NCBI RefSeq assembly: GCF_001046875.1
Contig: NZ_HF571038.1
Location: 565,203 to 629,202, forward strand
Direction: 5' to 3'
DNA length: 64,000 nucleotides
Origin: Nostocoides jenkinsii Ben 74
GTDB taxonomy: Bacteria > Actinomycetota > Actinomycetes > Actinomycetales > Dermatophilaceae
The position numbers and the translations under genes were made by a program. Positions within the stretch are counted from its first letter, which is position 1. Every line of letters begins with the position of its first letter. Positions 3,702-46,428 of this stretch are shown here, one piece after another. Below the pieces are notes generated by a model. It ran no database searches. It was not told the DNA's origin and was given only the letters and a program-made list of their open reading frames with translations.

Positions 3702-3861
3702 TGGGGGTATCCCCGACCCTTCGTGCCGAAGCACGCGCGGCCGGTGAACCGAGGTGCAACTCTACCGGCAATGCCCGCAGCGGCCCAAATCGCCGCGGCT
3801 TATCACGCGATCCCGTGCCCTCCCCGCCGGGGAGGGCACGGCATACGACTCGTGGGTTCGG

Positions 3862-5379
<1,518 letters not shown>

Positions 5380-7149: not shown

Positions 7150-7856
7150 TTCCCGTCCGTCGGATCGCCTCGGCGACGTAGGGCGTCGCGGCGCCTGGCC
7201 GCGGTCGCACGGCGCTTGACCTCGCTGCGCGCCAACGCGATTCCCACGAGGATGGGGAGCACGAGTTTGGCGTGATCGACCAGCCACACCAGCCAGCCCG
7301 GCATGTCCCAATCGGGCCACGGAATCGAGGGAAGGTGTAGGTCTGGCCAAGGAATGTCGGGGAGGTTGGACAGATCGAGGTCCGGCAACGGCACCGAGAA
7401 GTTGAACATCGCCGCGAGGCGAGCGAGCAGCCAAGCCACCGCAAGAGGCCCGACGACCTTCGCGACGCCGACGGCGACGTGCCGCGCGGCATACAGGCGG
7501 GGCCGGGCAGCCATCCGCTCCTCCCGGAGGGCGAGCGGCGAGCCGGGCTCCGGTTCCAGATCGACACCCCCGACGCCGAGATGGGCTGCGCCGTGGGCCT
7601 CCGGCCCCTCGAACCAGATGGCCCGACGCGGCGCCGATAGGGCACTGTGGAGCACCCGCATCGCCCCAAAAGCCTTGTCCGCGGGGACGGTTGGCACCAG
7701 AACGAGCTTGTCCTCCCCCGACGCCTTGCACGCGACCTCGATGCCGTCGACACACCAGACGACCAGCCGCTTGGCCCACCCGGCTTCCTGAGATGTCACC
7801 ACATGTTGCTGGTCGGCAACCTGCAGCGTCCAGACTTGGATCGGCTTGTCCCCCAC
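7146..7856 (-). CDS. Hypothetical membrane-associated protein with Pro-Trp-Asp repeats
   Basis: A 236-residue protein that I do not recognise. The first ~110 residues are soluble (QVWTLQVADQQHVVTSQEAG, then VLVPTVPADKAFGAMRVL). A hydrophobic stretch around residues 126-146 (VAVGVAKVVGPLAVAWLLA) is followed by four short repeats of PDLDLSNLP / IPWPDLHLP / IPWPDWDMP type (about residues 150-180). A second hydrophobic segment (WLVWLVDHAKLVLPILVGIA) and an Arg-rich basic tail follow. This suggests a membrane anchor with an external or interfacial Pro/Trp-rich loop. The stop overlaps the convergent upstream gene by 4 bp. Confidence 0.75.
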   Translation of the reverse strand: MGDKPIQVWTLQVADQQHVVTSQEAGWAKRLVVWCVDGIEVACKASGEDKLVLVPTVPADKAFGAMRVLHSALSAPRRAIWFEGPEAHGAAHLGVGGVDLEPEPGSPLALREERMAARPRLYAARHVAVGVAKVVGPLAVAWLLARLAAMFNFSVPLPDLDLSNLPDIPWPDLHLPSIPWPDWDMPGWLVWLVDHAKLVLPILVGIALARSEVKRRATAARRRDALRRRGDPTDGN

Positions 7857-7903
7857 CGCTGTCCCGCTCCCCTGCCGTTGCCGTCATGGAAGCAGTTCAC
7901 CGC

Positions 7904-36184: not shown

Positions 36185-36895
36185 ATGTCGAACGCTGTTG
36201 ACGACATCCTGAACAGCCTGGACATGGCCCAGCTCGCCGACATGGTGGGCGCTTCCCAGAGCGAGGTCGAGCAGGCCACCGCGGCGGCGCTGCCGGCATT
36301 GTTCGGAGGCCTGGACGCCAACGCTCAGGACCCGGCGGGTGCCGGATCGATTCTGGAGGCCCTCGGCCAGCATGACGGCGAGCTCCTCGACGGCGGCGTC
36401 GACCTGGGACAGGTGGACGCGCAAGACGGCGAGGCCATCACGCGGCACATCTTCGGCAGCAACGAGGACGCCGTCTACAACCAGCTCGGTGGGTATGGCG
36501 CGGCGGGCGGCCTCGGCGGCAGCCTCTTCCGCAAGCTCCTGCCGATCCTGGCCCCAATCGTGCTGTCCTACATCATGAAGCAGATGACCCAGCGCACCGG
36601 CGGCTCGTCCTCCGGCTCGGGCGGCGGCGGTCTCGGCGACATCCTCGGCCAGGTGCTGGGCGGCAAATCGGCCGCGCAGCCGCAGGACGCCCAGGTGGAC
36701 GACAACGTGCTGCCGCAGCGCACCGAACCGACCTCCTCGGCTCCGTCGACGTCCGGGCAGCCGGACCTGAACGACATCCTCAAGGACGTCCTCGGCGGCG
36801 CTGCCTCCAGCCAGACCAGCCGCCAGCAGGCACCGTCCGGTGGCGGCAGCGTGATCGACATCCTGGGCTCGATCCTCGGCGGCGGCCGCCGCTGA
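36185..36895 (+). CDS. DUF937 domain protein
   Basis: A 236-residue protein of the DUF937 (YidB-like) family. The N-terminal part, VDDILNSLDMAQLADMVGAS followed by ALPALFGGLDANAQDP, and repeated GGLGDILGQVLGG / LNDILKDVLGG / VIDILGSILGGG motifs in a Gly/Ser/Gln-rich C-terminal half are typical. A hydrophobic segment, LLPILAPIVLSYIMKQM, lies near residue 123. Function unknown in the family as I know it. It is transcribed alone. Confidence 0.88.
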   Translation: MSNAVDDILNSLDMAQLADMVGASQSEVEQATAAALPALFGGLDANAQDPAGAGSILEALGQHDGELLDGGVDLGQVDAQDGEAITRHIFGSNEDAVYNQLGGYGAAGGLGGSLFRKLLPILAPIVLSYIMKQMTQRTGGSSSGSGGGGLGDILGQVLGGKSAAQPQDAQVDDNVLPQRTEPTSSAPSTSGQPDLNDILKDVLGGAASSQTSRQQAPSGGGSVIDILGSILGGGRR

Positions 36896-36924
36896 TCGGG
36901 CTTCGGCTACGAACTCCCGCCGCG

Positions 36925-37022
36925 CCCGTTCTGACGGGTTTGGGTGGCTTTCCGGCTCTATGGGTGGGAAACCCACGGCCGGAAAGCCACCCAAACCGCT
37001 GGAAAGTGGGACTGGGCGGGAA
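36925..37022. repeat. Palindromic intergenic repeat, intact copy
   Basis: A roughly 100-bp element with a perfect 19-bp inverted repeat, GTTTGGGTGGCTTTCCGGC at 36938-36956 and its complement at 36978-36996. The loop itself holds TGGGT/ACCCA. Flanks CGCCCG at the left and GGGCGGGAA at the right are shared with a second copy at 37929-37969 plus 44794-44851, which is split by the composite transposon. REP- or MITE-like; no coding capacity. Confidence 0.85.
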
Positions 37023-37039
37023 CCTGTCGGCCCGTCTGT

Positions 37040-37804
37040 CTAAGCGGACGGCTTCAGCGAGGCGCCCGCGTCTGCTTGCGCGTTGGCCTTGCTGATCCGG
37101 GTGATGAGGTCGTGCAACCCAGCACTCCCACCGCCCACCACCGCCCCGGTGACAGCCATCTCGAGGCACTTGACGACAAACTGAGTTTTGCCCAGGTTCT
37201 CCGCGAAGGTGACGCCGAGCGTGGTGAGAAAGTCCGCCTCCAGCCATCCACAGAGCACCATGCCGAACATCGCGGTCAGCCCGAATGTCAACGCTTTCCG
37301 CTCCGTCGTCTTCGCATCGACGACGGCTTGCTTCGTCGCTGCATCTTTGGCCGGGTCCGTGCCTTCCGCCGCGGGCTCGTCGCCCACCAGTGCATTCCGG
37401 GCGCTGACGAGCGCCTCGTCGCGAGCCTCCTTGGCCGCCCGCATACCCAGTCCGGGAATGGCGCGGGCTGGATCGAGAAGTCCGAGGAGCACCTCGGTGA
37501 ACCGCTCAGCCGCCTGGGCCACCACATAGAACAGGGCAAACGTTCCGACCCCGGCGACAGGCTTAAAGATGGGCCCGGACTCTGGGGTCCCAAACTGCCT
37601 GGCGGCGAAACAGGCACCGACGATGAACAACACGGACCCGATCGCGCCGGCTCCCCACCTGGGTTTCGGGCTCGCGCATTCATCCTTCGGTGCGGCCCCG
37701 GTCGGTGGGGACACAGGCGCATCCGCCAAATTGCGAATCGCCGACACGACGATCGCCGCTGCCGTCTCGCTCATCGCCGGTCGCGGCGCAAAGTAGATGG
37801 CCAT
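37040..37804 (-). CDS. Hypothetical membrane protein
   Basis: A 254-residue protein I do not recognise. The chosen start, MAIYFAPRPAMSETAAA, lies after a GAGAGTGAG stretch. Hydrophobic segments are near residues 50-68 (WGAGAIGSVLFIVGACFAA) and 80-95 (VGTFALFYVVAQAAE). A polar, Ala/Asp/Glu-rich middle (EALVSARNALVGDEPAAEG...) and two more apolar stretches (LTFGLTAMFGMVLCGW; AVTGAVVGGGSAGLHDLI) follow. It looks like a membrane protein with an internal charged loop. A large dyad and a direct repeat lie immediately upstream. Confidence 0.7.
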   Translation of the reverse strand: MAIYFAPRPAMSETAAAIVVSAIRNLADAPVSPPTGAAPKDECASPKPRWGAGAIGSVLFIVGACFAARQFGTPESGPIFKPVAGVGTFALFYVVAQAAERFTEVLLGLLDPARAIPGLGMRAAKEARDEALVSARNALVGDEPAAEGTDPAKDAATKQAVVDAKTTERKALTFGLTAMFGMVLCGWLEADFLTTLGVTFAENLGKTQFVVKCLEMAVTGAVVGGGSAGLHDLITRISKANAQADAGASLKPSA

Positions 37805-37813
37805 CCCAGAACT

Positions 37814-37858
37814 CACTCTCTTGTCAACGCCCCCGGGTTGAGGCATGGCAAGAGAGTG
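37814..37858. promoter_or_regulatory. Nested dyad upstream of the hypothetical membrane protein
   Basis: Perfect 10-bp arms CACTCTCTTG (37814-37823) and CAAGAGAGTG (37849-37858) directly followed inside by TCAAC/GTTGA (37824-37828, 37837-37841). It starts 10 bp upstream of the gene start. Likely an operator or a leader hairpin. Confidence 0.5.
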
Positions 37859-37867
37859 GCGCGCGCT

Positions 37868-37887
37868 ACTTAACGACCACTTAACGA
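37868..37887. repeat. Direct repeat ACTTAACGA x2 with 11-bp period
   Basis: ACTTAACGA occurs at 37868-37876 and 37879-37887. The spacing of one helical turn, upstream of the hypothetical gene and next to the dyad, is the pattern of a tandem regulator-binding site. Inference only. Confidence 0.4.
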
Positions 37888-37928
37888 GCGCCGGCACGAC
37901 CGCTCAGCAGGACTCCGTGCCGCAGGAC

Positions 37929-37969
37929 GCCCGGGCTGCCGGGTTTGGGTGGCTTTCCGGCGCTTTGGG
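37929..37969. repeat. Left half of a second palindromic repeat, split by the transposon
   Basis: Contains GTTTGGGTGGCTTTCCGGC (37943-37961), identical to the left arm of the intact copy at 36938. It ends with GCTTTGGG (37962-37969), the 8-bp target duplication; the element continues at 44794 after the insertion. Confidence 0.85.
37962..37969. repeat. 8-bp target-site duplication, left copy
   Basis: GCTTTGGG directly precedes the ISL3 terminus GGCT (37970-37973). The same 8 bp directly follow the outer right ISL3 terminus at 44786-44793. ISL3-family elements characteristically duplicate 8 bp. Confidence 0.85.
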
Positions 37970-37973
37970 GGCT

Positions 37974-38418
37974 TGTATGACTTAGAGGGCCTCCTGGTTG
38001 CAGGTGGTGGTCGCTACGGTGGCCGTGGGAGAAGGCTCCGGGTCGTGCCGCTTTTCGGCTGAGCGTTCGGGCTCGTGAAAGAGATCGACAGGCCCGGGGT
38101 CGGCTCTCCCGGCTGAGGTTGGCCCGGTTCAGGGAATTGGTGGCCGTGTCAGGGGCCCGCCCCGCGGATCCCCTGGGGCGGGGTAGGCACCGGATCACGC
38201 ACAAGCATGGGAACGCCTGCCGTGGTGTTCATCTGTGGCGGCTGGGTGGCAGCGGTTCGGGAGCTCGCCTCATCGCGGACGAGCCGGCGGATGACAGCGC
38301 CGGGGAAAGGACGCGAGGGTTCTCCCGCCGCTGTTGGCGAGCCCGATCCTCCAAGGTCACTGGCCGGTGGTCGTCGAGGAGCGGGTTCACGTTCATCGTT
38401 GCGAACGGAGGAACCCTC
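37974..38418 (+). ncRNA. IS110 left non-coding end, candidate bridge-RNA region
   Basis: 445 bp without a plausible gene between the element boundary and the transposase GTG. In IS110-group elements a structured bridge RNA is encoded in the left end and has two loops that guide target and donor recognition around a core dinucleotide. The stretch is GC-rich and self-complementary in places (GGGGCCCGCCCCGCGG near 38153). I could not assign guide loops by eye; GGCTCT, which matches the target GGCT-CT, occurs near 38103. Assigned from family knowledge, not from a recognised RNA. Confidence 0.5.
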
Positions 38419-39783
38419 GTGTCTATTCACGGTACCGATCCCGTCGCCGGTCTGTCGCCGGTGCGGGTGCAGGTCGGCATCGACGCCGCGGTGGTGGCCA
38501 ACCATCACGTGTGCGTCCGGGAGATCTTGCCGGACGGGCAGGTGCGCCTGTCCCGGTTCACCACGCCGCCGACCCTGGCCGGCCTCGACATGCTCATCGG
38601 ACGGTTGAGCGCCTATCCCGGCGTGGTCGCCGTTGCGGAGCCGACGTCGATGACGTGGCTCGCGCTCTCGATCGCGATGCGCCGCTCCGGCGGGGACCTG
38701 TCGCTGCTCGGGGCCCGGCACGCGGCCCGGCTGCGCGGGGCGATCATCGGCAAGGACAAGTCCGACGTCATCGACGCCGATGTGCTGGCCACCGCCGGGG
38801 AGGTCTTCACGCTGTCTCCGATGCGTCCACTGACCCCGCCGCAGCTGGCGCTGCGTCGGGCGGTGACCCGCCGCGGGAAGCTCGTCGTCGACGGCAACCG
38901 TGCCCGCCGTCGGTTGATCTCGTTGGCGCGGTGGGCATTTCCCGATGTGTGGTCCGCGTTCGCCGGCTCCCAGCCGACCGCGGTCGCGGTCCTGACCCGC
39001 TGGCCCGACCTGCGCGCCCTGGGCAGCGCCCGCCGCTCCACCCTCACCGGTGTCGTCGCAGCCCACACCCGAGGGGTGCCGGACGTGCCCGCCCGAGTCG
39101 AAGCGATCCGTGCCGCCGCCCGCGCCTGGACGGAGTTCTGGCAGGGGCACCTGGACCTGGACGCCCTGGCCTGGGAAGTGGCCGAGCACCTGCACGACAT
39201 GGCTGAAGCCGACCAGCGGATCGCTCGTGCGACCGCCCAGGCCACGCACTACTGGGCCGACCTGTACGGCGACGACCCGCTCTTGCTGTCGGTCCCGGGG
39301 ATGGGCCCGATGACCGCACCCGCCGTACGCGCGTTCCTCGGCGACGGCGGCGCGTTCACCACCGCCAAGGCGGCCGCCTCCTACGTGGGGATGAACCCCT
39401 CCACCTGGTCCTCCGGGACGGTGGTTCAGCCGTCGAGGGCGATCACCAAGGAAGGCCCCGCGGTGCTGCGGCTGGCGTTCTATCAGGCCGCCGGCGGCGC
39501 CCGTAAGAGCGACCCTCAGCTGGCCGCCTTCTATCGGCACCTGATGGTCGACCGCGGCCACAGCCACACCAAGGCCACCGTCGCTGTCGCGCGCAAGCTG
39601 ATCGAACGGACCTGGACGGTGCTGCACCGCGGCCAGCCCTACCAGCTCCGCGACGTCGACGGCACCCCGCTGACCCGAGTCCGGGCCAAGGAGATCGCCC
39701 GAACCTACGCCGTCCCACCCGAGGTCCGGGCCCGAGCCCGAGCACGCAGCGCGGCCACGCACCGCTCCAAGCTCACCCGCTGA
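38419..39783 (+). CDS. IS110-family transposase
   Basis: A 454-residue IS110 recombinase. The GTG start follows GGAGG by 6 bp. The RuvC-like DEDD domain shows Asp22 (VGIDAAV), Glu74 (AVAEPTS) and the Asp cluster 113-121 (GKDKSDVIDAD). The C-terminal Transposase_20 domain starts near VPGMGPMTAPAVRAFLG (292-308), and the conserved Ser-Gly of the second catalytic site is in NPSTWSSG (326-333). All key residues are present, so the enzyme looks intact. Long open frames on the opposite strand are GC-driven shadows. Confidence 0.95.
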   Translation: MSIHGTDPVAGLSPVRVQVGIDAAVVANHHVCVREILPDGQVRLSRFTTPPTLAGLDMLIGRLSAYPGVVAVAEPTSMTWLALSIAMRRSGGDLSLLGARHAARLRGAIIGKDKSDVIDADVLATAGEVFTLSPMRPLTPPQLALRRAVTRRGKLVVDGNRARRRLISLARWAFPDVWSAFAGSQPTAVAVLTRWPDLRALGSARRSTLTGVVAAHTRGVPDVPARVEAIRAAARAWTEFWQGHLDLDALAWEVAEHLHDMAEADQRIARATAQATHYWADLYGDDPLLLSVPGMGPMTAPAVRAFLGDGGAFTTAKAAASYVGMNPSTWSSGTVVQPSRAITKEGPAVLRLAFYQAAGGARKSDPQLAAFYRHLMVDRGHSHTKATVAVARKLIERTWTVLHRGQPYQLRDVDGTPLTRVRAKEIARTYAVPPEVRARARARSAATHRSKLTR

Positions 39784-39888
39784 CCTCACCCCGAGAAGCG
39801 ACCGAGGGACTCGTCACGCCAGGGCCCCTCGTCGATCACGCCTGCCCGAAGAATCCGCCCCCACGACCTTGACAACCAGTTAGGGAAT

Positions 39889-41388
39889 CTCTTCGAACTT
39901 AACCGGGCATCGCGTGGCAGATGATGGCTGTTTCCCGCCGGTGTTGGCGGGTGCAGGCCCAGCGTATGCGGCGTTCCTGGTTTCGGGTGTTGCGGAAGCC
40001 GAAGGCGTTACGACCTTCGTGTTTCCCGAGCCGGTTGTAGCCTTCGGAGCGGGCGTTGCTGTACCCAGTGGTCAGGCCGGCTTCGATTGCGGGCCACCAG
40101 GTTTCGACGGTTTCGGCGAGCCGGTGGACTTCGGGGATGTCGCAGCCTGCGGCTTGGTCGAAGAACCGCCACAGCCGGTGAGAGATCACGGACCGGTCCG
40201 GGACGGATGTGCCCGGTGTGGGGGCTAGGTCGAGCAGGTGGCGTAGGCGTTCTTTGACGGTGTAGGCGTGCAGGATCTCCACACCGACCTCGTCGGCGTC
40301 GAGCAGCTCGTTCCACATCCGCGCGAACGTCTCGGGGCGCAGGCGTTCATGGGCCGTCAGCAGCCGGCGCCGGTTGGCCCACTCCGGGTGGCGGGTCCGG
40401 CCCCGGCGGCCGCGCAACTCTCGGGTGGCGTGCTGGCGGACTTCGGTGAGCATGTCGTTCGCGAGGCGGACCAGGTGGAACCGGTCCGCCACCACGACCG
40501 CGTGCGGGAGCGCGAGGCGGATCGCGTTGGCGTAGCTGGCGGACAGGTCGATCGCCACGTGGGTGACGGCCTCTCGCCAGGCCTGGGGCTGGCCGGTCAG
40601 CCAGGCCGCCACACTCGCGGCGGTCCGGCCCTCAACGTGCGCCAACAACCCCGCGGTGCCGGCGGCATCGACGATCCCGGTCAACCAGCGATCCGCGACC
40701 AGCACCCACCGGCCGGTGGCCGGATCGCGAGCCCAGCGCCGCTTCCCACGGCTGATCTCATCGATCCCGAGCACGCTCACCGGCGGTGGCGGCGCGGTCA
40801 ACCACTCCTGCACGTGCGCCACGAACGCGGAATGCGCGATCGGCCACGACACCCCATAGAAATCACCGCCGGACTGCACGCACCGGAAGCTCTCGGCGAT
40901 CCCGGCGCCACACGCCGACCGCAGCCGGCATGTCAACCGTGACCGGGCCGGGATCGCTGGCACCGACTCGGTGAACGAGCCTCTCGGACAGGACGATTCG
41001 CGGCAACGCCACCGCGTCTTGGCCCACTCCAACACCACGGCGTCCTCGCCGTACGGGACATCCCGCGGGTGGGTGACCGCGTGTCCCTTCACCGAGGTCG
41101 AGACCACCCCACAGGTCGGGCACGCTGCCGCGCCCTCATCATCCGTGACCAGCCGCGCCAACCGCCGACCGCCCGGATCCTCCTCGACCTCGACGACCGC
41201 GACGCCCTCGATCCCCAACAACCGGGTCGCTGCCCGCGACCGCCCCGACGAATAGCGCATACTCGTGCTCAAGCCCGTGACCTCACCTTCGTGACCATGA
41301 ACTGCCTCAACAGCCATGATCACCGCAGGTCACGGGCCCACACGCGTCACCACGCCGAACCCGCCTGCCCGGTTAAGTTCGAAGAGCC
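39889..41388 (-). mobile_element. ISL3-family insertion sequence, copy 1 (outer end interrupted)
   Basis: 1,500 bp from CTCTTCGAACTTAACC to the terminal GAAGAGCC at 41388. Its first bases, GGCT, are at 37970-37973 beyond the IS110 insertion. The uninterrupted element is 1,502 bp with inverted repeats beginning GGCTCTTCGAACTTAACC. It is in the same orientation as copy 2 and encodes an identical transposase. Confidence 0.92.
39899..41323 (-). CDS. ISL3-family transposase, copy 1
   Basis: A 474-residue DDE transposase. The N-terminal zinc finger ligands are Cys68/71 (CPTCG) and Cys107/112 (CRESSC), followed by a helix-turn-helix region. The catalytic triad is Asp188 (LGIDEISR), Asp259 (VAIDLSASY) and Glu427 (NARSEGYNR). 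The last codons and the stop lie inside the inverted repeat, so the protein end and IS end overlap. The start MIMAVEAV could instead be the ATG at MAVEAV, or MRYSSGRS further in. Identical in protein to copy 2. Confidence 0.93.
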   Translation of the reverse strand: MIMAVEAVHGHEGEVTGLSTSMRYSSGRSRAATRLLGIEGVAVVEVEEDPGGRRLARLVTDDEGAAACPTCGVVSTSVKGHAVTHPRDVPYGEDAVVLEWAKTRWRCRESSCPRGSFTESVPAIPARSRLTCRLRSACGAGIAESFRCVQSGGDFYGVSWPIAHSAFVAHVQEWLTAPPPPVSVLGIDEISRGKRRWARDPATGRWVLVADRWLTGIVDAAGTAGLLAHVEGRTAASVAAWLTGQPQAWREAVTHVAIDLSASYANAIRLALPHAVVVADRFHLVRLANDMLTEVRQHATRELRGRRGRTRHPEWANRRRLLTAHERLRPETFARMWNELLDADEVGVEILHAYTVKERLRHLLDLAPTPGTSVPDRSVISHRLWRFFDQAAGCDIPEVHRLAETVETWWPAIEAGLTTGYSNARSEGYNRLGKHEGRNAFGFRNTRNQERRIRWACTRQHRRETAIICHAMPG

Positions 41389-41668
41389 CGATTGGGGGAC
41401 GTACGCCACGTCAGGTGGTCGTTGACGGGGTCCTAGCCTCCGTCTTTCACGGCGTTGCGGCTTGATGCGGTGAGGCGAGCGCTGGCGCGGGCTCCACCCT
41501 CGGCTCCCGCAAGCTCACCAACTACATCGCCGGAGCCTGCTCGAGACCGACTGCTTCTGACCACGAGTACGGACTCAATCCTGAAGAGCCAGCTAGGCCG
41601 CTGCTACACTCGCCCACGTGGAGGGTTGAGATTCACATCTTGGTACGCAGACTGTGAGAAGCAATCCC
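41389..41668. other. Passenger DNA upstream of the protease, with one arm of a direct repeat
   Basis: 280 bp between ISL3 copy 1 and the protease gene. No gene is recognised. It holds the left member (41541-41590, beginning TCGAGACCGACTGCTTC and ending GAAGAGCC) of an imperfect direct repeat whose partner lies after the protease at 43112-43155. A protease promoter must lie here; I see no clear -35/-10 pair. Confidence 0.5.
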
Positions 41669-43024
41669 ATGCTTCAGGTGGAGAGGGAGCAATTCTTGAA
41701 CTTGACCATGAAGGCTGCAGTCGGGGTTGTCACTGTTTCTCTCTTGGGGGGACTTCTTGCCTCGTCAACCCCTATCCTCGCCATGCCTGCACCCCCAGGC
41801 CATGCCCCGTCGACCGCTGACGGGATTGATCCCGCAATCGCAGACCAGGACAACGGGCTGGCTCTCGCGCGCGCACAGGGTCCGTTCCTGGCGATAATGG
41901 ACAAGGCGGCAGTCGTCGAAGGGTTTGGAGGCGCCTACTTCGACGGCGCCAGACCACATTTGAATGTGACTGACGCCTTCAACGAGGAGACCCTCAAACT
42001 CATTCTAGCCGAGTCGCCGCGCGGCTCGGAAGTCTTAATCCACAGGGTCACATGGACCGAGGCTGAACTCAACGCCGCAGCACGCATGATCGGCGATAAA
42101 TTTCCGCCTAGCCGTTCAACGTCTTTCAAGATCCCGCGTGTGAGTCTTGATACTCCGAAGAACCGACTCAGCGTCTACGTTGAAGGGGACGCATCCGAGG
42201 CGAGGGCTATGCTTGAAGATGTCGTTTCCTCGTCCATGATTGCAATCGTTCCAGCCAGCAATCTCCCATACATGTATGAAGCTGGAAGAACCGATGACGG
42301 CCCGCCCTTTTATGCCGGGAATGTATTGAGGAATGACACTCCAGATCAAGCCGGTGGCCACGCTCTCTGCAGTTCCTCTGCGGGCATGAAAATCGGGTCA
42401 ACCGAATATGTAATGACAGCTGCGCACTGCGACTTCGGGTCCGGGGAGTTGATTCGAGTCAACAACTTCTACGGGACCGCTCCATCACCCAGCATTGCTG
42501 GTACGTACCATGCGAAGGCATACTACGGCCCGAACAGCGCGAACAATGTGGATGCTATGCTCCTGCGGAGAAATTCCGTACCAAACCTTGTTACGAACAC
42601 TATGTGGTCCGGTTCACCGACTTCGACTTCTAGTCTACTCTATTCCACAAGTGCGGGATCAAATTATCTCGGCCGCGCGATCTGCTCGAATGGTGGATTT
42701 ACAGGGACTGTCTGTTCGATGAGCATTTCTGACCAAATCCCTTACCTTTACGGCGAGGGTAACATCAGGTGGAACCAACTGCTTTTCGCCGAGCGGCCTA
42801 ACGTCACGGTAGCGGGTTTTGGCGATAGTGGCGGTCCCGTGTACGGCTACCCTGAACAGGGCAGCTATTACGAAATCCTCGGGCCAATTCACGCGTTCAC
42901 GTCGAACGTGCAGGGCGGCTGGCAGTGCCCTGATGGCCCTCCTGGGAGGAAGTGTGGGGACGGTGTGGTCTGGAGTTCGCAGTCGGCCGCGCAAAGCAAA
43001 CTCGGCGCAACCATCGCGCCTTAA
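41669..43024 (+). CDS. Secreted trypsin-like (S1 family) serine protease with propeptide
   Basis: A 451-residue exported protease. The N-terminus MLQVEREQFLNLTMK is followed by a hydrophobic signal core (AAVGVVTVSLLGGLLAS) and an Ala-Met-Pro-Ala cleavage region near residue 40. Residues ~45-200 resemble a propeptide, with a VLIHRVTWTEAELNAA stretch. The chymotrypsin-fold triad is His253 (MTAAHC), Asp295 (NNVDAMLL) and Ser387 (GFGDSGGPV), with paired Cys. The start at 41669 has GAGAAG upstream; GTG 41654 and ATG 41708 are alternatives. The DNA is visibly less GC-rich than the neighbours and sits between two ISL3 copies, so it was probably acquired with the transposon. Confidence 0.88.
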   Translation: MLQVEREQFLNLTMKAAVGVVTVSLLGGLLASSTPILAMPAPPGHAPSTADGIDPAIADQDNGLALARAQGPFLAIMDKAAVVEGFGGAYFDGARPHLNVTDAFNEETLKLILAESPRGSEVLIHRVTWTEAELNAAARMIGDKFPPSRSTSFKIPRVSLDTPKNRLSVYVEGDASEARAMLEDVVSSSMIAIVPASNLPYMYEAGRTDDGPPFYAGNVLRNDTPDQAGGHALCSSSAGMKIGSTEYVMTAAHCDFGSGELIRVNNFYGTAPSPSIAGTYHAKAYYGPNSANNVDAMLLRRNSVPNLVTNTMWSGSPTSTSSLLYSTSAGSNYLGRAICSNGGFTGTVCSMSISDQIPYLYGEGNIRWNQLLFAERPNVTVAGFGDSGGPVYGYPEQGSYYEILGPIHAFTSNVQGGWQCPDGPPGRKCGDGVVWSSQSAAQSKLGATIAP

Positions 43025-43283
43025 GCGCGGGCCAGCTAAGCCAGTGCGGGTCGCCGAGCAGCGACCGCGCGACGCTCCGGTCTGCCCGGCACGACAACCA
43101 GCCGAGTAGTGTTCGAGACCGGCTGCTTCAGACCACGACTACATTGTGAAGAGCCCTCAAGGGAGTCCCCTGTCATTGAGCGAGGTGGCTGGCAGCGGAT
43201 GGCTCTCCAGCTTAGAGACTAAGCGCGTGGCCAGGCACCGTACTTGCGGCCCATGCCAATCGCGGGTAGCCCGGAAGTTAAGC
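43025..43283. other. Passenger DNA downstream of the protease, with repeat and 5S-like segment
   Basis: 259 bp without a gene. It contains the right arm (43112-43155) of the direct repeat flanking the protease. Directly against ISL3 copy 2 lies a segment (43227-43283) starting GTGGCCAGG and ending CCCGGAAGTTAAGC, which resembles the 5' half of a 5S rRNA gene cut off by the insertion. The resemblance is by eye only and the middle of the segment diverges. Confidence 0.4.
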
Positions 43284-44785
43284 GGCTCTTCGAACTTAAC
43301 CGGGCATCGCGTGGCAGATGATGGCTGTTTCCCGCCGGTGTTGGCGGGTGCAGGCCCAGCGTATGCGGCGTTCCTGGTTTCGGGTGTTGCGGAAGCCGAA
43401 GGCGTTACGACCTTCGTGTTTCCCGAGCCGGTTGTAGCCTTCGGAGCGGGCGTTGCTGTACCCAGTGGTCAGGCCGGCTTCGATTGCGGGCCACCAGGTT
43501 TCGACGGTTTCGGCGAGCCGGTGGACTTCGGGGATGTCGCAGCCTGCGGCTTGGTCGAAGAACCGCCACAGCCGGTGAGAGATCACGGACCGGTCCGGGA
43601 CGGATGTGCCCGGTGTGGGGGCTAGGTCGAGCAGGTGGCGTAGGCGTTCTTTGACGGTGTAGGCGTGCAGGATCTCCACACCGACCTCGTCGGCGTCGAG
43701 CAGCTCGTTCCACATCCGCGCGAACGTCTCGGGGCGCAGGCGTTCATGGGCCGTCAGCAGCCGGCGCCGGTTGGCCCACTCCGGGTGGCGGGTCCGGCCC
43801 CGGCGGCCGCGCAACTCTCGGGTGGCGTGCTGGCGGACTTCGGTGAGCATGTCGTTCGCGAGGCGGACCAGGTGGAACCGGTCCGCCACCACGACCGCGT
43901 GCGGGAGCGCGAGGCGGATCGCGTTGGCGTAGCTGGCGGACAGGTCGATCGCCACGTGGGTGACGGCCTCTCGCCAGGCCTGGGGCTGGCCGGTCAGCCA
44001 GGCCGCCACACTCGCGGCGGTCCGGCCCTCAACGTGCGCCAACAACCCCGCGGTGCCGGCGGCATCGACGATCCCGGTCAACCAGCGATCCGCGACCAGC
44101 ACCCACCGGCCGGTGGCCGGATCGCGAGCCCAGCGCCGCTTCCCACGGCTGATCTCATCGATCCCGAGCACGCTCACCGGCGGTGGCGGCGCGGTCAACC
44201 ACTCCTGCACGTGCGCCACGAACGCGGAATGCGCGATCGGCCACGACACCCCATAGAAATCACCGCCGGACTGCACGCACCGGAAGCTCTCGGCGATCCC
44301 GGCGCCACACGCCGACCGCAGCCGGCATGTCAACCGTGACCGGGCCGGGATCGCTGGCACCGACTCGGTGAACGAGCCTCTCGGACAGGACGATTCGCGG
44401 CAACGCCACCGCGTCTTGGCCCACTCCAACACCACGGCGTCCTCGCCGTACGGGACATCCCGCGGGTGGGTGACCGCGTGTCCCTTCACCGAGGTCGAGA
44501 CCACCCCACAGGTCGGGCACGCTGCCGCGCCCTCATCATCCGTGACCAGCCGCGCCAACCGCCGACCGCCCGGATCCTCCTCGACCTCGACGACCGCGAC
44601 GCCCTCGATCCCCAACAACCGGGTCGCTGCCCGCGACCGCCCCGACGAATAGCGCATACTCGTGCTCAAGCCCGTGACCTCACCTTCGTGACCATGAACT
44701 GCCTCAACAGCCATGATCACCGCAGGTCACGGGCCCACACGCGTCACCACGCCGAACCCGCCTGCCCGGTTAAGTTCGAAGAGCC
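43284..44785 (-). mobile_element. ISL3-family insertion sequence, copy 2 (complete)
   Basis: 1,502 bp with perfect terminal inverted repeats of at least 23 bp, beginning GGCTCTTCGAACTTAACC at 43284 and ending in the complement at 44785. The outer flank is GCTTTGGG (44786-44793), matching the left duplication at 37962. The inner flank AGTTAAGC does not match, which fits a composite rather than two independent insertions. Confidence 0.95.
43296..44720 (-). CDS. ISL3-family transposase, copy 2
   Basis: A 474-residue DDE transposase, residue-for-residue the same as copy 1, with the same zinc-finger cysteines (68, 71, 107, 112) and triad Asp188, Asp259, Glu427. The stop codon lies in the inverted repeat. 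With both inverted repeats intact, this copy looks able to move by itself. Confidence 0.95.
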   Translation of the reverse strand: MIMAVEAVHGHEGEVTGLSTSMRYSSGRSRAATRLLGIEGVAVVEVEEDPGGRRLARLVTDDEGAAACPTCGVVSTSVKGHAVTHPRDVPYGEDAVVLEWAKTRWRCRESSCPRGSFTESVPAIPARSRLTCRLRSACGAGIAESFRCVQSGGDFYGVSWPIAHSAFVAHVQEWLTAPPPPVSVLGIDEISRGKRRWARDPATGRWVLVADRWLTGIVDAAGTAGLLAHVEGRTAASVAAWLTGQPQAWREAVTHVAIDLSASYANAIRLALPHAVVVADRFHLVRLANDMLTEVRQHATRELRGRRGRTRHPEWANRRRLLTAHERLRPETFARMWNELLDADEVGVEILHAYTVKERLRHLLDLAPTPGTSVPDRSVISHRLWRFFDQAAGCDIPEVHRLAETVETWWPAIEAGLTTGYSNARSEGYNRLGKHEGRNAFGFRNTRNQERRIRWACTRQHRRETAIICHAMPG

Positions 44786-44793
44786 GCTTTGGG
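44786..44793. repeat. 8-bp target-site duplication, right copy
   Basis: GCTTTGGG directly after the outer right ISL3 terminus; identical to 37962-37969. Confidence 0.85.
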
Positions 44794-44851
44794 TGGGATA
44801 ACCACAGCCAGAAAGCCACCCAAAGCGCCGGAAACTGGGATTGGGCGGGAA
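44794..44851. repeat. Right half of the split palindromic repeat
   Basis: Continues the repeat interrupted at 37969: AGAAAGCCACCCAAAGC corresponds to the right arm of the intact copy (36981-36996), and the segment ends with GGGCGGGAA as at 37016-37022. Joined to the left half it aligns base for base with the intact element, with scattered substitutions. Confidence 0.8.
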
Positions 44852-44904
44852 ATCCGCAGACCGGCTGGCGGGACGGGGACTTGTCTGGGGTTGCCTTCCC
44901 GGCC

Positions 44905-46428
44905 CTAGCCGACCAAGGTGTCGAGGATGAGTTGGCGGGCGGCCGCGGCGTCGGCCTGGCCCTTCATCTCCTTCATGACCTGGCCGATGAGGGCGCCGGC
45001 CGCCTGGACCTTGCCGTCGCGAACCTTCTGTGCCACATCGGGATTCGCCGCGATGACCTTGTCGACCGCGGCCTGAAGTGCGCCGGTGTCTTGCACCAAC
45101 TCCAGCCCACGCGCGTCGGCCACCGCCGTCGGCGTGCCCTCGCCGGCGAGAACGCCGTCCCAGACCTGGCGCGCCATCGCGTCGTTCAGCCGGCCGCCGG
45201 TGACCAGCGACTCCAACTCCACGACGTGAGCCGGAGTGACGGCGAGGGACGCGGCATACGTCGGCACATCCGAGCCCGCGTCATTGGCGCGGCGGGCGAT
45301 TTCGCCCGACCACCACTTGCGTGCGCCGGCGGGGGTGGCACCGGCGGTGACAGTCTCGTCGATCAGGTCGACAAGGCCGGCGTTGACGACATCACGCATC
45401 TCCAAATCGCTGTAGCCCCAGGCACTTTGGAGACGCTTGCGGCGGGCCGCGGGCGGCTCGGGGAGGGTCGCGCGCAGCGCCTCGACCATCTCGGTGCTCG
45501 GGGCAACCGGAACCAGATCGGGCTCAGGGAAGTAGCGGTAGTCCTCGGCGTCGGACTTCTCGCGGCCGGCGGTCGTGATGCCCGTGTCCTCGTGCCAATG
45601 CCGGGTCTCCTGCGTGACCTTGCCACCGGAGGACAGGATCGCCGCGTGGCGACCGATCTCGTAGCGCACCGCCCGCTCGACCGAGCGCAGCGAGTTGACA
45701 TTCTTGGTCTCACTGCGGATACCGAAGGTCGTCGAATCCTTCGGCATAAGAGAGAGATTCACATCGCAGCGCATTGAGCCCTGCTCCATTTTCACGTCCG
45801 AGACGGCGAGCGCCTTGAGCAGATCGCGCAGGGTCGCGACATACGCCTTGGCGATCTCCGGCGCCCGCTCCCCCGCGCCCGTCATAGGCTTGGTGACGAT
45901 CTCGATGAGCGGAATGCCGGCGCGGTTGTAATCGACCAGCGAGTGCGTCGCGCCGTGGATGCGACCGGTCGAGCCACCAACGTGCAGCGACTTGCCGGTG
46001 TCCTCCTCCATGTGCGCGCGCTCGATCTCGACGCGATAGGTCGAGCCATCCGCCAACTCGACGTCGAGGTGGCCGTTGAAGGCGATCGGCTCGTCATACT
46101 GCGAGGTCTGGAAGTTTTTGGGCATGTCCGGATAGAAGTAGTTCTTCCGGGCGAACCGGCACCAGCTCGCGATCTCGCAGTTGAGCGCGAGGCCGATGCG
46201 GATGGCGGACTCGACGCCCTTCTCATTGACCACCGGCAGGGCACCGGGCAAGCCGAGGCAAACCGGGCAGACCTGCGAATTGGGTTCTGCCCCAAAGGCG
46301 GTCGCGCAGCCGCAGAACATCTTGGTGTTGGTGCCCAGCTCGACGTGCACCTCCAGCCCCAGCACCGGATCGTATGCCGCGAGGGCCTCCTCGAAGGGCA
46401 GCGTGGCTTCGGCGGTCGCCTGGCTCAT
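44905..46428 (-). CDS. gatB: Asp-tRNA(Asn)/Glu-tRNA(Gln) amidotransferase subunit B
   Basis: tRNA-binding and kinase subunit of GatCAB, which activates the Glu (or Asp) carboxylate on mischarged tRNA. The 507-residue product has [19 protein letters not shown] near residue 23, then [20 protein letters not shown] with the zinc Cys pairs, the MRCDVNLSL segment near residue 222 and the C-terminal helical/YqeY-like tail from about residue 370. It lies 3 bp after gatA. The 3' side is now close to the transposon insertion, but the gene is intact. Confidence 0.97.

Follow-up and report, generated by a model that had tools for sequence, protein, structure and literature searches.

An IS110-family element lodged in an ISL3 terminal repeat of Nostocoides jenkinsii belongs to a subfamily that recurs at ISL3 ends and is probably guided by a bridge RNA

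Some insertion sequences (IS) settle in the ends of other transposons: IS4321 and IS5075, as Partridge and Hall are said to have described in 2003, reside in the terminal inverted repeats of Tn21-family elements. According to the available parts of two reports, RNA guidance is established for both IS110 and IS1111 elements (PMC11208160, PMC11187229). On the side of the potential targets, the accessible part of a third paper lists ISArsp7, an ISL3 element of Arthrobacter with GGCTCTTC ends, an 8-bp duplication, and a length of 1,451 bp (PMC6305408). Here, we describe a 6.8-kb insertion in Nostocoides jenkinsii Ben 74 in which an IS110-family element sits in the outer terminal repeat of one of two ISL3 copies, which together flank a gene for a putative secreted protease. 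The window, meaning the whole stretch of DNA that was analyzed, comprises 64,000 nt of the forward strand of NZ_HF571038.1 (positions 565,203-629,202). We read the locus, with a probability of about 0.87, as three nested layers: a palindromic repeat, an ISL3-flanked unit inserted in it, and an IS110 element, likely guided by a bridge RNA, in the outer end of ISL3 copy 1.

A preliminary description had accounted for the 6.8 kb by two ISL3 copies and the 1.9 kb between them. These components are all present (Table 1), but two copies of 1.5 kb and a 1.9-kb segment add up to 4.9 kb. The missing part is a third element, of the IS110 family, that makes up 28% of the insertion and was found once in this genome. 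Its transposase matches PF01548 (1.9e-14), PF02371 (9.7e-18), and NCBIfam NF033542 (162.4 bits, cut-off 140). The element splits the outer terminal repeat of ISL3 copy 1 at GG-CT-CTTCGAACTT, 2 bp inside the repeat, leaving the order GG CT, IS110, CT CTTCGAACTTAACC, for which the uninterrupted counterpart is the end GGCTCTTCGAACTTAACCGGGCA of copy 2. As is typical of the IS110 group, there is no target duplication and a core dinucleotide, CT, is shared by both junctions. Noncoding sequence amounts to 445 nt 5' of the transposase gene and ~105 nt 3' of it, and the long downstream region of the IS1111 group is thus missing; subterminal inverted repeats of about 11-13 bp are a further mark of that group. 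When IS110 is removed, the ISL3 end directly adjoins the 8-bp duplication GCTTTGGG, so this duplication belongs to ISL3, and IS110 is probably a separate layer, later than the ISL3 insertion. Because IS110 was inserted there, the composite lacks a recognizable ISL3 end at its left boundary. Targeting of the palindromic repeat by IS110, as IS621 does with repetitive extragenic palindromic (REP) sequences, was considered and rejected, since the interrupted sequence is that of ISL3, at two bases from the tip, and the whole insertion is bounded on its other side by an exact ISL3 end.

Table 1. Features of the insertion and its flanks, in window coordinates
Feature	Position	Strand	Remarks
Palindromic repeat, left half	37942..37969	.	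Ends in the 8-bp duplication GCTTTGGG (37962-37969)
GG, outermost 2 bp of ISL3 copy 1	37970..37971	-	Cut off by IS110; compared with copy 2 end GGCTCTTCG at 43284
CT core dinucleotide, left junction	37972..37973	+
IS110-family element	37974..39888	+	Left end TGTATGACTT, right end GTTAGGGAAT
Predicted target-binding hairpin of bridge RNA	38027..38110	+	Left guide ..CGGCT 38056-38060; right guide GAAAGAG 38077-38083
Predicted donor-binding part	38120..38215	+	CAGGGAATTG 38130-38139 like the element's right end; CACAAG 38200-38205 can pair with left end CTTGT
IS110 transposase	38419..39783	+	DEDD_Tnp_IS110 and Transposase_20; NCBIfam "IS110 family RNA-guided transposase"
ISL3 copy 1, remainder	39889..41388	-	Starts with CT core 39889-39890; transposase 39899-41323
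Relic 3' end of a different ISL3 element	41485..41590	+	Ends GAAGAGCC
Passenger gene, putative secreted S1-type protease	41654..43024	+	56.5% GC vs 67.4% for the window
Second ISL3-type relic right end	43110..43155	+	Same orientation; by similarity to the first relic
ISL3 copy 2	43284..44785	-	Both ends intact (GGCTCTTCGAACTTAACCGGGCA); transposase 43296-44720
Second GCTTTGGG (44786-44793) and right part of palindromic repeat	44786..44851	.

The ISL3 pair itself is as the preliminary description had it. Both transposase genes lie on the minus strand, confirming the direct orientation, and the claimed identity of the transposases extends to the whole copies, which match at 1500/1500 positions, or 1502/1502 when the GG beyond IS110 is counted with copy 1. 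The transposase contains PF01610 (DDE_Tnp_ISL3, 1.3e-43) and PF14690 (zinc ribbon, 3.1e-9) and scores 276.7 bits against NCBIfam NF033550 (cut-off 180). Terminal repeats of the GGCTCTTC type, perfect over 23 bp in copy 2, and an 8-bp duplication place the copies in the ISL3 family, with the duplication spanning the pair rather than each copy. The same 8 bp indeed bounds the outer ends, as proposed, and the inner-end 8-mers differ from it. Two IS copies around a passenger, with a duplication at the outer ends only, constitute the structure of a composite transposon, here with IS110 inside the outer end of copy 1. A search of the genome returned only these two full ISL3 copies.

Removal of the insertion restores the palindromic repeat, also in line with the earlier proposal, as joining the flanks yields a sequence that matches the intact repeat at 36937-37022 in 76/86 positions. 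The repeat is dispersed in the genome, with 11 matches listed, the insertion site among them. An exact, uninterrupted GCTTTGGG stands at the homologous position in three of the nine other repeat copies read (L003, L008, and L010); L005 has one mismatch to it, L004, L007, and L009 have two (GCTTTGCA), and L002 and L006 read otherwise. The intact copies carrying GCTTTGGG are paralogous evidence for the empty site, and, with the outer duplication and the identical ISL3 copies, they make the insertion of an ISL3-protease unit in the repeat well supported. The closest relative in the sample, G001, whose gatB is 96% identical, has ~80 bp between the matching flanking stretches, with no trace of the repeat, the protease, or the IS; the region is thus not ancestral in G001, which nevertheless does not represent a clean empty site. 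The repeat is ~85 bp long, with at least ten copies in the genome (36937-37022; 37942-37969 joined to 44794-44851; L003-L010). Between two of its copies lies a hypothetical gene (37040-37897) that matches nothing in Pfam or NCBIfam and, like the repeats, is absent from G001.

Close homologues of this IS110 transposase define a subfamily, for which further copies were sought. At E <= 1e-60, it was detected in 1/396 genomes of the order sample (its own only), 2/394 of the class sample, and 3/395 of the family of G063; at E <= 1e-40, it was detected in 1/198 genomes in the genus of G658, and viral contigs contained none. Homologues from named genomes (13 loci), plasmids (3 loci), and further genomes gave 18 loci, including the window, after removal of repeats (L060 = L051, L062 = L048, and L063 = L057). 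To locate the element's ends, we demanded only GTTAGGG after the gene (right) and CTTG(T/C)AT before it (left); earlier patterns that contained CTCT (right) and a purine pair (left) were circular, and the search without those demands gave the same loci. The right end was found in 12/18 loci, all of which continue with CTCT (CTCTTC in nine, CTCTAC in two, and CTCTCC in one). The left end was found in 15/18 (the pattern is missing from L048, L055, and L059) and is preceded by GG in 14 and by AG in one (L046).

Most of the right-end junctions correspond to ISL3 ends. A perfect 8-bp duplication surrounds IS110 and ISL3 together at four loci: GCTTTGGG in the window, CCCAAGTC in plasmid pDCT5 of Arthrobacter dokdonellae (L057, where the neighbor is annotated as 'ISL3 family transposase'), CTCAACAG in Arthrobacter sp. 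Hiyo8 (L052), and GTCAAACT in G1311 (L070). Because the four duplications differ, they represent four separate ISL3 insertions. ISL3 transposase sequence adjoins the right end in four further loci (L047, L048, L050, and L058), and L045 reaches its contig edge within an ISL3-like repeat (18/23 positions). Across the 11 right-end loci besides L059, the evidence for ISL3 is thus firm in eight, likely in one, unknown in one, and negative in one, with L059 as a second negative. The right end of IS110 faces the ISL3 interior in six loci, whether the invaded end is on the start side of the transposase gene (L057, L050, and L070) or on its end side (window, L047, and L052). At L047, L057, and L070, the full-length ISL3 transposases share only 32-36% identity with that of the window, so the common target is the terminus itself.

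Some of these loci have further peculiarities. ISL3 elements are inserted inside the IS110 5' region in L050 (3474-4934, with duplication GGGTTGTC) and L051 (3267-4730, without exact duplication); the two families insert into each other. The ISL3 unit behind IS110 in L052 (6500-11064) spans ~4.6 kb, with tyrosine-recombinase-like frames (by eye) between the transposase and the other end, and is possibly an ISL3 element with passenger genes. In L070, the flanks of the IS110-ISL3 unit (reverse strand, 3716-3929 and 7348-7900) look transposase-like by eye, and its ISL3 may have inserted in another transposase gene.

We then consider what could direct the subfamily to this terminus. The 445 nt 5' of the IS110 gene are conserved in pattern. 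Alignment A1, with 12 sequences, shows no variation in two stretches, CGGCT and GAAAGAG, or in the longer CGGCTG and GAAAGAGATCG; the two stretches fit the ISL3 terminus GGCTCTT as candidate guides. On the model of IS621 (PMC11208160), the first presumably reads the left half of the target and the core (GG-CT), and the second presumably pairs with the core and the right half (CT-CTT), a strand assignment that we assume. GAAAGAG is also found in L050, L051, and L070, and L059 has GAACAGAG instead. These three and L059 were recovered by search patterns containing CGGCTG, so its presence there is no independent evidence, and only the 12 sequences of A1 give independent guide counts. A second conserved 5' block contains AGGGAATTG, which matches the element's right end GTTAGGGAATCT, and CACAAG, which can pair with the left end CTTGT. 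Such blocks are what one would expect of a candidate RNA with a target loop and a donor loop, and in single folds the two guide stretches lie opposite each other in one hairpin (by eye). Within 36500-45300, Rfam gave nothing at gathering thresholds. We infer the existence of the RNA, and its guiding of recombination, from what is known of the family and from the agreement between guide and target.

In the mechanism that we propose, an RNA from the IS110 5' noncoding region would fold into a target loop and a donor loop. The target loop, through two guides that read (C)GG-CT and that pair with CT-CTT, would recognize a terminus conserved in many ISL3 elements, and the donor loop would recognize the joined ends of IS110 itself. 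Strand exchange by the recombinase at CT would then insert IS110 at 2 bp from the ISL3 tip, oriented with the right end toward the ISL3 interior. The ISL3 tip would be separated from the rest of the terminal repeat, and that end probably disabled.

How specific this targeting might be is less certain. We lean, with some reserve, toward an IS110 lineage of the Actinomycetota whose target guides are fixed on the ISL3 terminus, i.e., a hyperparasite of ISL3 elements that are only about one-third identical to one another, which would disarm one of their ends and possess selectivity beyond a core of ~8 nt. Several observations weigh against the proposed targeting as a whole. The 8-nt guide core is too short to restrict insertion to ISL3 ends, one non-ISL3 CGGCTCTT being present in the 64-kb window, and either extra selectivity or the loss of copies that landed in genes must therefore act. 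L046 (IS110 61% identical) lies in a phage-integrase-type gene (PF00589, 6.8e-15) at AG-CT-CTAC rather than in ISL3, the most distant member, L059 (44-45% identical), has CTCTTC but lies near no ISL3, and next to L044 there is coding sequence that was not recognized as ISL3. The six loci without the right end (L049, L051, L053, L054, L055, and L056) are uninformative. As to the RNA, folding of the window sequence gives no advantage over shuffled sequence (z -0.54), and covariation contributes little (-1.6 kcal/mol, with a double change in 8/41 consensus pairs). A comparison with other IS110 elements, in which an ISL3 coding sequence lies <=1.5 kb from the gene in 9/18 subfamily loci versus 2/24 other loci (one-sided Fisher p 0.003), speaks for the targeting but is subject to bias, as the three ISL3 queries came from subfamily loci and favor that group; each of the nine loci was also matched by a query from another locus. 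Three of the nine are not simple target cases: ISL3 lies within the IS110 5' region in L051, in that region as well as at the right end in L050, and as weak fragments beyond a truncated IS110 in L055. The nine do not include L052, where the ISL3 gene is >1.5 kb away, and the control excludes five loci with fragments of the subfamily, none with ISL3 (L016, L018, L036, L040, and L041), with some of its loci sharing a genome.

The short core and the two loci away from ISL3 (L046 and L059) are what one would expect if IS110 targeted GGCTCT anywhere, with ISL3 ends over-represented as safe noncoding landing sites. We consider this unlikely, because half of the ten GGCTCTT sites in this ISL3-rich window lie outside ISL3 (three are intact ISL3 ends, two relic ISL3 ends, and five elsewhere), yet 8 of the 11 right-end loci, L059 left out, are firmly at ISL3 and one more has an ISL3-like repeat at the contig edge. 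The left flanks also match the guide at 57/140 positions versus 34.9 for shuffled flanks, an excess that we do not take as proof since a target-site preference of ISL3 may explain it. A guide fixed on the terminus would not address the whole ISL3 family in any case, because two other ISL3 elements begin with GGGTATCC in the portion of the source that tabulates them (PMC6305408). More doubtful still is that the ISL3 end already contained IS110 before the unit moved, so that IS110 traveled as cargo, with GGCT and the IS110 left end serving as a working ISL3 end. The outermost GGCT is retained, and the left end resembles the ISL3 repeat at 13/23 positions in the window, 12 in L045, and 11 in L044, but the match drops to 7-8/23 in L050, L052, L057, and L070, which led us to reject mimicry of ISL3 ends as a general property; moreover, no IS110-ISL3 unit was seen at two sites, although no systematic search for such units was made. 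A different question, which concerns the middle layer only, is how the ISL3-protease unit arrived. The preliminary description held that a composite transposon had delivered the protease; an ISL3-flanked unit in the repeat is well supported, and delivery by composite transposition is unproven. A single resident ISL3 with duplication GCTTTGGG, into which a circular ISL3-protease molecule integrated by homologous recombination, is a tentative but serious alternative, as identical direct copies with a duplication only at the outer ends are the exact outcome of one such integration. Against it, no free circle or second site is known, and the genome has only the two full ISL3 copies. Transposition and recombination would leave the same pattern.

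The passenger gene and its surroundings hint at an older history. The guanine-cytosine (GC) content of the 1.9-kb segment is 58.5% and that of the protease gene 56.5%, compared with 67.4% for the window. The protein had been described as trypsin-like with a signal peptide: it does contain the motifs TAAHC (residue 255) and GDSGGP (residue 390), its score against Pfam Trypsin is below the cut-off (E 0.055, 13.7 bits vs 20.6), and the signal peptide is plausible as judged by eye. Distant matches exist in 3/57 other relatives (27%, 31%, and 27%), the longest in G018 (27% identical over residues 27-413), and weak ones in its own genome (37% over 170 residues; 27%). At E <= 1e-20, there were none in the 285 other genomes of the class sample, and neither plasmids nor solved structures gave a match. 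Searching the protease in these same relatives, class-sample genomes, and plasmids revealed no ISL3-protease unit at a second site, and the suggestion that it might be found between other ISL3 copies was thus not borne out. Within the newer ISL3 pair, the protease gene is itself bracketed by two relic right ends from another type of ISL3, 1565 bp apart; the first can be aligned with plasmid genes annotated as ISL3 transposases, at their 3' ends. The cassette may therefore have been carried by ISL3 elements earlier, and the relics suggest a previous round of ISL3 mobilization.

Among the known systems, IS621 (IS110 group; Durrant et al. 2024, PMC11208160) is similar in its CT core, in its left-end bridge RNA with target and donor guides (predicted in the present element), and in a recurrent target within a repeated sequence, as far as the available part of that paper goes. 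It differs in using a nine-base left and a four-base right guide on REP-type sites, whereas here only about five bases of the left guide fall on a constant target, because the remainder falls outside ISL3. ISEc21 and the other seekRNA elements (Siddiquee et al. 2024, PMC11187229) select their target by an RNA from a noncoding region, as we propose for the present element, but the target is a different one, and that paper nowhere uses the word ISL3. ISArsp7 is the same type of element as the ISL3 invaded here, and the accessible text of PMC6305408 mentions neither IS110 nor an IS110 insertion. In the open-licence literature, we found no report of IS110 insertion into ISL3 ends. The locus offers a natural case of a presumed bridge-RNA element aimed at the end of another transposon family, with guide and target both readable in several genomes. 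How IS110 elements might hold back or immobilize ISL3 elements and their cargo thereby becomes testable, and there is a puzzle of specificity, as 8 of the 11 informative copies of the subfamily are located at ISL3 ends despite the short guide core. The targeting of transposon ends as such is already known. Like IS4321 and IS5075, which belong to the IS1111 group, the present element has a DEDD transposase and naturally targets the terminal repeat of another transposon family; unlike them, its long noncoding region lies upstream of the transposase gene, the IS110 arrangement, and its target is ISL3 instead of Tn21. Most likely, IS110 elements of this subfamily parasitize ISL3 ends by means of a predicted bridge RNA, as IS4321 and IS5075 parasitize those of Tn21.

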